Shown piece after piece: positions 7,729-22,800 of a stretch of 64,000 nt of DNA (positions are counted from its first letter, which is position 1; each line of letters opens with the position of its first letter). The position numbers were made by a program, and so were the translations under genes. Source of the stretch: Paralichthys olivaceus (Eukaryota; Chordata; Actinopteri; Pleuronectiformes; Paralichthyidae); assembly GCF_024713975.1 (NCBI RefSeq), contig NC_091107.1, positions 22,559,501 through 22,623,500 of the forward strand, read 5' to 3'. The notes under the pieces were generated by a model that was not told where the DNA came from, made no database searches, and worked only from the letters and a program-made list of their open reading frames with translations.

Positions 7729-10680
7729 TTAGTCGACCTCCTCAATGGTGGGGCCAGATGATCCAGCGCCAGGAGCGGCACCACCAGCTCCACCGAAGCC
7801 ACCAGGCATGCCTTCTGGCATACCACCTGGCATGCCACCGGCACTCTGGTACAGCTTAGTGATGATGGGGTTGCACACCTTCTCCAGTTCCTTTTGTTGA
7901 TGCTCATATTCATCCTTTTCGGCAGTCTGCAAAACAAGGACTTTCAGTATTTGGACAAATGTCTCATCATTAGAAAAGAAAAAATAAGAGCTGAGTATTT
8001 ACCTGGTTCTTGTCCAGCCAGCTGATGACCTCGTTGCACTTGTCCAAGATCTTCTGCTTATCTTCATCACTGATCTTGCCAGCGAGCTTCTCATCCTCCA
8101 CAGTTGACTTCATGTTGAAAGCATATGACTCCACTCCATTCTTTGCAGACACCTTGTCACGCTGGACATCATCCTCTGTCTTGTACTTCTCAGCCTCCTG
8201 GACCATGCGTTCAATGTCCTCCTTGCTGAGACGACCTGTCATCAAATATGTAAGATTAGCATTTATCATGTGATGCTGGGATAACACTGCAGTTAAATTA
8301 GGGTGGAGTAGCATTAAATACCCTTGTCATTGGTGATGGTGATCTTGTTCTCCTTTCCAGTGCTCTTGTCAGCAGCAGAGACATTCATGATGCCGTTGGC
8401 ATCAATATCAAATGTCACCTCGATCTGGGGAACACCACGAGGAGCAGGAGGGATGCCTGTCAGCTCAAACTTGCCCAGCAGGTTGTTGTCTCTGGTCATG
8501 GCACGCTCACCCTCATAAACCTGTTGAAGTGTGTTAGGAGACAATGTTTAAAACATGTTCGTCTACAGTTCTATCAACTTTATTCAGCTCAAACACACAA
8601 GAAAGGCCTCAGGGAGGCAAACAAGGTGACAAGAAAAAGAATCATTAAAACACGTGCTCACCTGGATGAGCACACCAGGCTGGTTGTCAGAGTAGGTGGT
8701 AAAGGTCTGGGTCTGCTTAGTAGGAATGGTGGTGTTGCGTTTGATCAAGACAGTCATGACGCCTCCAGCAGTCTCAATACCCAGGGACAGGGGGGTGACA
8801 TCCAGAAGCAGCAGGTCCTGCACATTTTCAGACTTGTCACCAGACAGGATGGCAGCCTGGACAGCTGTAAAGACAAAACAGCAGTTGGCATATAGAAAAT
8901 TATATTAAGTTTGAAACTTGACCTTCAGGTGCTAAACACTTATTGATATCACGGCCCAAGTCTAAAAAACTAAGTGATGCACATCAATTGGCAGACAATT
9001 CTTACCAGCTCCGTAGGCCACAGCTTCATCAGGGTTGATGCTCTTGTTGAGCTCCTTTCCATTGAAGAAGTCCTGGAGCAGCTTCTGGATCTTGGGGATA
9101 CGGGTGGAGCCACCGACCAGGACAATGTCATGGATCTGTCCCTTATCCATCTTGGCATCACGGAGAGACTTCTCCACAGGGTCTAGTGTGCCACGGAAGA
9201 GGTCAGCATTGAGCTCCTCAAAGCGAGCCCTGGTGATGGAGGTGTAAAAGTCAACTCCCTCATACAGGGAGTCGATTTCGATGCTGGCCTGGGTGCTGGA
9301 AGACAATGTGCGCTTTGCCCTCTCACAAGCGGTGCGCAGACGACGGACAGCTCTCTTGTTGTCGCTGATGTCTTTCTTGTACTTGCGCTTGAACTCAGCG
9401 ATGAAGTGGTTGACCATGCGGTTGTCGAAATCTTCCCCACCAAGATGAGTATCTCCAGCGGTGGACTTGACCTCAAAGATGCCATCCTCAATGGTCAAGA
9501 TGGACACATCAAAGGTGCCACCACCAAGATCGAAGATGAGGACGTTCCTTTCTGATCCAACCTGGAAAGGAGTGAAAATTTCAAACTCTACACAACTACC
9601 CAGAACTAGAATTGTTTCTAGTTCTGTTTATTTAAAACCATCAACAATGTTTCATTATAATTTTGGTTATTTTTAAGATTTATATACCTTCTTGTCCAAA
9701 CCATAGGCGATGGCAGCAGCAGTTGGTTCATTGATGATACGCAAAACATTGAGGCCAGAGATAGTGCCTGCATCCTTGGTGGCCTGGCGCTGGGAGTCAT
9801 TGAAGTAGGCGGGCACTGTGACTACAGCATTGTTGACAGTCTAAAAGGAATAAAAGCATTAAAATTCACTCCATAGCATTCAAGTATTATGGCTTTCTTT
9901 ACAAAAAAAATATAGCGGTAACGTACCTTTCCGAGGTAGGCTTCAGCAATCTCCTTCATCTTGGTCAGCACCATGGAAGAGATCTCCTCTGGGTAGAAGG
10001 ACTTTGACTCACCCTTGTACTCAACTTGAACTTTGGGGCGAGTGCTGTCATTGATGACATTGAATGGCCAGTGCTTCATATCTGATTGTACAACTGCGTC
10101 ATCGAACCTGCGGCCGATCAGCCTTTTGGCATCTGTGAAAAGAAAGTTCTTATTTTTATTTTAAGAACCTTTTTGGGACAGTGTGCACTTTTATAATAGA
10201 AGCCCACTCAGACATCCAAGGAAGGTTTTGGCCATCTTTGGTCTTTCGACCTCTGGTGGAAACTACGAATGGCAGGAAAATCGTCATCACAGTGAGGTGC
10301 TCTTTAACAAGTCACATAGGACCTTTTTGAGTAAGACTTGTATCACTCTTGTTCATTTTATTTTTAGTCAAGTTTAATTGCCCACTCTTGTGAAGAGGTA
10401 CTCCACTTTCAGCAGGTTTTTGTGACAAGAACGACACAAGCTCACTTTAGATCAATAAGAAAATTGAACTCTTACCAAAGACTGTGTTGGTGGGGTTCAT
10501 GGCAACCTGGTTTTTGGCTGCATCTCCAATCAGCCTCTCGGAATCTGTGAAGGCCACATAGCTGGGTGTGGTCCTGTTGCCCTGGTCATTGGCAATGATC
10601 TCAACTTTTCCATGCTGGAACACACCAACACAGGAGTAGGTGGTCCCGAGATCAATACCAACCGCTGGTCCCTTAGACAT
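7729..10680 (-). CDS. hspa8: Hsc70 (HSPA8), copy A
   Basis: Cytosolic/nuclear Hsp70-family ATPase that folds clients, uncoats clathrin and serves chaperone-mediated autophagy with J-protein and NEF partners. Eight coding exons: 10476-10680, 9927-10132, 9688-9840, 9006-9561, 8662-8864, 8322-8520, 8003-8235, 7729-7926, all with GT-AG borders. Their lengths (205, 206, 153, 556, 203, 199, 233, 198) match the classical vertebrate HSC70 pattern, and the total is 650 codons plus stop. Visible signatures are [12 protein letters not shown] at residue 9, the catalytic Lys in [10 protein letters not shown] near residue 71, [25 protein letters not shown] [11 protein letters not shown], a GGMP-rich tail and the C-terminal EEVD that binds TPR co-chaperones. 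Start is the MSKGPAVG methionine; four residues of upstream open frame belong to the 5'UTR exon. A noncoding first exon ends at 11424. Intron 2 hosts a U14 snoRNA. Exon 2 and exons 5-8 are almost identical to copy B. Confidence 0.98.
10203..10296 (-). ncRNA. snord14: U14 box C/D snoRNA (SNORD14) in hspa8 A intron 2
   Basis: On the minus strand the intron contains box C GTGATGA (10284-10290), the U14 signature CATTCGTAGTTTCCACCAGA complementary to 18S rRNA, a CCTTCCTTGGATGTCTGA segment holding box D CTGA (10208-10211), and a short closing stem CTCAC/GTGGG. U14 is required for early pre-rRNA processing and directs 2'-O-methylation of 18S. Vertebrate HSPA8 introns are its known host, and the snoRNA is released from the spliced intron. 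Length is about 94 nt, normal for U14. I found no second copy in the other introns of this gene and none in copy B. Confidence 0.93.

Positions 10681-22800: not shown

Follow-up and report, generated by a model that had tools for sequence, protein, structure and literature searches.

Mammalian HSPA1A and HSPA1B carry no introns. Pairs and clusters of hsp70 in Diptera are reportedly the subject of related work by Bettencourt and Feder (2002), and Kudla et al. (2004) is said, by its title, to link gene conversion with GC content. Conversion between Hsp70 paralogues has been reported in mammals (PMC5865164) and in a dipteran with some inverted copies in its clusters (PMC3071340), and one source states that it occurs in nematodes, mammals and molluscs (PMC8423806). 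Two genes named hspa8a.1 and hspa8a.2 are described on the same chromosome as hyou1 in both spotted seabass and turbot (PMC8646100, PMC10094059). The turbot paper gives a Ks of 0.47 between hspa8a.1 and hspa8a.2 versus 1.29 and 1.74 to hspa8b, with an hspa8a.1 model of only 431 aa (PMC10094059). The term "gene conversion" is absent from its main text (PMC10094059), and a literature search across titles and abstract openings found no description of hspa8 conversion in fish.

Here we describe an inverted pair of hspa8 genes, copies A and B, in a 64,000-nucleotide stretch of the Paralichthys olivaceus genome (the window), which is part of contig C15 of the single assembly that forms our sequence basis (588 Mb, 25 contigs). 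The pattern between A and B is explained far better by interlocus gene conversion, in one or several rounds, than by any alternative. We are highly confident that this is an old pair in which exon 2 and the block of exons 5-8, introns 5-7 included, were copied by fairly recent, perhaps repeated, conversion, with A as the most likely donor and B as the recipient. The seabass and turbot genes hspa8a.1 and hspa8a.2 are probably the same pair as A/B; as they share a chromosome with hyou1 in both fishes, the pair may be old.

Structure of the pair and its two tracts

Copies A and B lie head-to-head, and about 9.2 kb separates their start codons (Table 1). Both are intact: splicing gives in each an open 650-residue HSC70 (hspa8-type) protein with a C-terminal EEVD, encoded by eight coding exons of matched lengths (205, 206, 153, 556, 203, 199, 233 and 198 nt). 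The 218-aa frame with exon 5 of A has a Pfam match to Hsp70 (PF00012), and its top PDB sequence matches, considering the best 60 of 88, are heat shock cognate 70/71 kDa chains. For full-length A and B the highest PDB score belongs to human HSPA2 (5fpn), above HSPA1A and HSC70 chains. The HSPA2 chain is complete and the HSC70 chains among the matches listed stop at residue 554 or earlier; hence this order is set by length and not by kinship alone. Judged by the Hsp70 domain, the HSC70 relatives and the EEVD end, A and B both belong to HSPA8 (cytosolic HSC70).

Table 1. Positions in the window of the coding exons of copies A and B, the two tracts and the snoRNA
Feature	Positions	Strand	Remark
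Copy A, coding exons 2-9	10680-7729	-	
A exon 2 (coding, starting at the ATG), tract 1	10476-10680	-	203/205 identical to B exon 2
A exon 3, unconverted	9927-10132	-	43 differences/206
A exon 4, unconverted	9688-9840	-	33 differences/153
A exons 5-8 with introns 5-7, tract 2	8003-9561	-	98.2% to B 20727-22304
A exon 5	9006-9561	-	
A exon 6	8662-8864	-	
A exon 7	8322-8520	-	
A exon 8	8003-8235	-	
A exon 9 including stop, unconverted; EEVD end	7729-7926	-	38 differences/198
Copy B, coding exons 2-9	19882-23203	+	
B exon 2, tract 1	19882-20086	+	
B exon 3, unconverted	20219-20424	+	GC3 29/69
B exon 4, unconverted	20505-20657	+	GC3 15/51
B exons 5-8 with introns 5-7, tract 2	20734-22302	+	
B exon 5	20734-21289	+	
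B exon 6	21432-21634	+	
B exon 7	21785-21983	+	
B exon 8	22070-22302	+	
B exon 9 including stop, unconverted; EEVD end	23006-23203	+	
SNORD14 (U14) snoRNA, A intron 2	10204-10295	-	Rfam RF00016, 68.8 bits, cut-off 64

In mammals and trout the U14 snoRNA sits in an intron of an hspa8-type host gene, and copy A shares this arrangement. Rfam searches detected no U14 in B at E up to 1 (intron 2 of B is the shorter one) and none around the intron-bearing paralogue on contig C13 (gathering cut-off). Perhaps only one copy of the pair hosts this snoRNA. Elsewhere in the window, exons of another Hsp70-like gene were seen at 48475-51942 on the minus strand; when ten open reading frames outside the pair were compared with Pfam, 1/10 matched, namely Hsp70 at 49195-49542. 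This gene is probably hyou1, which neighbours hspa8a in the papers on seabass and turbot.

Self-BLAST revealed two inverted tracts of near-identity. Tract 1 joins A 10471-10683 with B 20091-19879 (99.1%, 213 bp), and tract 2 joins A 8001-9568 with B 22304-20727 (98.2% over 1578 columns, including 10 gaps). The two tracts had been proposed by a sequence-only reading of this DNA at about 0.2 kb and about 1.6 kb, and their ends proved correct within 2 bases; its single difference in the 205 bases of exon 2 has to be corrected to two. Its description of exons 5-8 with introns 5-7 as almost identical agrees with the counts, which were 550/556, 202/203, 198/199 and 231/233 for the exons and 140/141, 136/141 and 83/86 aligned bases for the introns (96.5-99.3%). 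The strong divergence it noted elsewhere is equally apparent. Exons 3, 4 and 9 are each about 80% identical (163/206, 120/153 and 160/198) and differ at synonymous sites as well. For introns 2, 3, 4 and 8 the A-B similarity never rose above the best of 20 shuffles per intron. Introns 2 (0.192 versus 0.195) and 3 (0.430 versus 0.437) came close to their best shuffle, and it is possible that they keep a trace of the old homology.

At the 445 variable coding sites, the longest runs of agreement between A and B were 71, 51 and 47, while the largest run in 10,000 shuffles was 43. Each of these runs falls within exons 5-8, except that the last extends into the start of exon 9. The same permutation test gave no significant run in exon 2, whose 31 variable sites, 2 of them differing, are too few for one. 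By direct counts, exon 2 has 2/205 differences versus 114/557 in exons 3, 4 and 9 (p = 9e-15), and 2/31 differing variable sites versus 125/445 overall (p = 0.002).

Tract 2 is interrupted in exon 5, where four differences fall within 7 nt (A 9139-9145), three of them in a Gly/Ser codon and one next to it. The data fell short in a cluster test with a 28-nt threshold; 4/10 differences within 7 nt gives p about 1e-4, with a threshold chosen post hoc. The cluster may represent a multi-base mutation or a short patch left unconverted. The self-comparison also contained other repeat pairs at 80-85% identity, namely 31201-31547/56620-56964, 3031-3245/6421-6200 and 28851-29074/32325-32539.

As the work is based on a single assembly, we considered that B might have been built from reads of A. 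Such a copying error would yield identity, but about 18 substitutions and 10 gap columns separate the two copies in tract 2. Introns and synonymous sites have changed at similar rates, and 3/12 changes across all converted exons are nonsynonymous. An assembly artefact is therefore very unlikely.

Neutral divergence and age of the tracts

The A-B dS was 0.029 in exons 2 and 5-8 (9.0/314.8 sites) versus 1.45 in exons 3, 4 and 9 (80.2/125.2 sites); uniform divergence, set beforehand as the outcome that would speak against conversion, was not what we found. Thus near-identity is sharply bounded amid diverged paralogues and includes introns and synonymous sites, which is the signature of gene conversion.

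Constraint on the nucleotide sequence itself, through regulatory or RNA elements, might also preserve likeness in exons and introns, and a U14 snoRNA does occur in an hspa8 intron here. It lies, however, beyond both tracts, in A's intron 2, and no Rfam family was found in introns 5-7 (E up to 1). In the converted exons taken together, the dS of the C13 paralogue (L009) is 1.14 to A and 1.17 to B (0.77 to 1.9 by single exon), and in exons 3, 4 and 9 it is 2.3 to A and saturated to B. Its introns have no BLAST homology to those of A or B, and no near-identical block common to it and A or B was found. Because this paralogue is distant from both copies in both exon sets, constraint fails to explain the A-B identity, and we consider such an explanation exceedingly improbable. 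The claim of the sequence-only reading that intron identity goes beyond protein constraint is borne out by the same values. Its central proposal, patchwise gene conversion, is likewise strongly supported by two sharply bounded blocks with saturated divergence around them and none shared with the C13 paralogue.

A recent duplication in place of conversion deserves mention since this genome does contain one among its hsp70 genes. The tandem pair on C6 (L012, C6:13988000-13997990), together with its flanks, shows 99.4% identity across 3805 columns up to the end of the compared stretch, and its coding dS of 0.026 over the same exon set is close to that of the A-B tracts; on this evidence it is a recent duplication. 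The C6 pair is uniform through its flanks, whereas A-B divergence is saturated wherever the tracts do not reach, both between them and beyond. Duplication of the whole gene in recent time is refuted by the diverged exons 3, 4 and 9, and a recent duplication is an extremely unlikely account of the A/B pattern.

Within tract 2, neutral divergence is alike in introns (9/368) and synonymous sites (7/267), as expected of neutral decay since homogenisation. Tract 1 has 2 differences in 47.7 synonymous sites, and its age does not differ from that of tract 2 (p = 0.37). The tracts are young relative to the duplication that produced A and B. From distances alone, A would pair with B at every exon among the A, B, C13 and C6 genes.

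We also rejected the idea that the initially most similar exons were the ones converted. Identity between A and the C13 paralogue is highest in exons 2, 5, 6 and 7, yet exon 8 (74.8%) is below exons 3 and 4, and between the C13 and C6 genes exon 4 (77.1%) exceeds exon 5 (76.4%).

When pooled over the whole coding sequence, the A-B dS is 0.236 although the exons outside the tracts are near saturation; whole-CDS hspa8 trees or dates in such fishes will thus mix two histories. The turbot Ks of 0.47 could reflect patchy conversion too, subject to the shortness of the hspa8a.1 model in that paper. In addition, A and B may be hard to separate with short reads or qPCR primers placed in exons 2 and 5-8. 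Published seabass primers for hspa8a.1 and hspa8a.2 both lie in exon 5 and agree over 17 and 19 overlapping bases (PMC8646100). We discarded this agreement as a sign of conversion because the control failed: the hspa8b primer listed there has identical letters at the forward site (PMC8646100).

Direction of transfer

The third codon positions differ between the exon sets in one copy only. In B, GC3 is 303/465 in converted versus 76/185 in unconverted exons (p = 2e-8), that is 0.65 versus 0.41. A (301/465 versus 108/185, p = 0.15) and the C13 paralogue (293/465 versus 116/192, p = 0.54) stay near 0.6 throughout. Because the contrast is confined to B, A is the likelier donor. The sequence-only reading had described the unconverted exons of B as rich in A/T-ending codons. 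This holds for exons 3 and 4 (GC3 44/120 in B, 74/120 in A) but not for exon 9 (32/65 versus 34/65), and the GC3 argument consequently rests on exons 3 and 4.

Further information comes from fragment F, a broken partial copy of the A 3' end at C15:22509670-22510315 (L021:4871-5516), about 57 kb from A and about 49 kb before the window. It matches A 8331-8145, 7983-7895 and 7483-7154, with the intervening pieces missing, and so contains, in this order, a first piece that runs from the end of exon 7 through intron 7 into exon 8, a second with parts of exon 9 and of an A-type intron 8, and a third of A-type 3' flank. Its identity to A is 96.3% in the intron 7/exon 8 piece and 91.0% and 87.7% outside. 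In a search with the outer 1 kb of A (six candidates scored), flank part 518-855 occurred in A and F only. Thus F joins the shared intron 7 to surroundings that are A's own, which is what one would see were this intron native to A.

This argument requires F to be older than the conversion. Divergence between F and A outside the tract (34/416) exceeds the neutral A-B differences (16/635, p = 4e-5), but after removal of a locally messy flank stretch the comparison becomes 13/303 versus 16/635 (p = 0.16). Moreover, the intron 7/exon 8 piece is nearer to A (6/186) than the remaining F (p = 0.03), and F itself may have been touched by conversion. Across the 183 columns compared, F sides with A at 3 sites, with B at 2 and stands alone at 4. 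On these alignments, F would agree only weakly with transfer from A to B. The genome search for fragments covered three stretches of A/B, exclusive of 22303-24000 and 9688-11500, and further fragments may lie elsewhere in the genome.

A transfer from B to A, or in both directions, is compatible with the tract being symmetrical in itself and with the absence of a preference at the F sites. It would nevertheless require GC3 in B to have been raised in precisely those exons that were converted, with no such unevenness in A or the C13 paralogue, and in F the shared intron 7 is followed by an intron 8 and a 3' flank of A type. We hold this alternative to be unlikely, and conversion from A to B to be the probable direction on compositional grounds. 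The earlier suggestion of transfer mainly from A to B is therefore favoured, short of proof, by the B and A GC3 values, with little help from F.

Tract ends and relation to known systems

Tract 1 starts three bases upstream of the ATG and stops five bases inside the exon 2 donor site, while tract 2 starts seven bases upstream of exon 5, in the acceptor, and stops two bases beyond exon 8. Inward from the exon borders, 101, 34, 375 and 174 identical nucleotides precede the first difference. Given 20.5% divergence in the background, the 95% bound on the length of an unconverted stretch left at any edge is about 13 nt. Hence 4/4 tract ends are exon/intron borders within about 13 nt, and the introns beyond are unlike; p = 5e-6 for four such ends is illustrative, since it presumes uniform and independent ends. 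Ends at borders with unlike introns beyond indicate that the tracts halt at the edge of homology, and we infer that repair tracts, or the union of many, were limited by homology. What appears to be new here is this placing of homology-limited tract ends at exon/intron borders.

A plausible course of events would begin with a double-strand break in one copy, repaired with the other copy as template. Strand invasion would occur where exon sequences remain similar, and repair synthesis or heteroduplex would extend to the homology edge and halt at the dissimilar introns, so that tracts would end at exon/intron borders. Exons 3, 4 and 9 have escaped. A cDNA-mediated route is ruled out for tract 2, which has introns 5-7 inside it, and is possible for exon 2 alone.

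Conversion tracts usually measure 200-300 bp in most studies and about 500 bp in one, and identity above 80% is the usual condition, according to a review (PMC3924818). Tract 1 is within this length, whereas the greater length of tract 2 would allow for more than one event. One variant of the preferred explanation is continuous concerted evolution since the duplication: exon 2 and the exon 5-8 block never diverged under recurrent conversion, and the other parts escaped singly as introns gained indels. Such a history needs no transfer across introns that were already unlike, and 4/4 ends at homology borders fit the union of many events in a shrinking block of homology. Tract 2 is long for a single event by the lengths given above (PMC3924818), and the synonymous distance of exon 9 is below that of exons 3-4 (p = 0.02), as if it had escaped later. 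Conversely, the equal neutral divergence of the two tracts would also be explained by one or two near-simultaneous events. Within the preferred explanation, we give this variant a share slightly short of half.

More tentatively, and with the doubt leaning against it, conversion may be gated exon by exon: protein-constrained exons would serve as landing islands and diverged introns as insulators at the splice junctions, with exons 3-4 and 9 free to diverge and the remainder evolving in concert, a state that perhaps predates the separation of several percomorph families. Border-limited tracts make the statement that diverged introns stop conversion testable, in a pair seemingly common to at least two other percomorph fishes.

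Among known systems, HSPA1A/HSPA1B of placental mammals resemble A/B in combining conversion between neighbouring cytosolic Hsp70 paralogues with purifying selection (PMC5865164). That pair is called tandem in the same source (PMC5865164), whereas A/B are inverted and intron-bearing, with only some exons homogenised. The hsp70 genes of Diptera are similar in that some are inverted and show conversion tracts, with a homogeneity that decays away from the coding sequence; in contrast to A/B, they are described as multi-copy clusters in which conversion follows coding sequence, not an exon block with introns (PMC3071340). The LWS opsins of poeciliids are, like A/B, inverted teleost duplicates, with hybrid genes and a suggested conversion that includes an intron-containing 3' part, but they are arranged tail-to-tail and their duplication is placed near the base of the poeciliids (PMC2527612, PMC3087554). 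We regard A/B as a clean further case of the already known conversion among Hsp70 genes, of which the exon-bounded tracts are the most useful feature.
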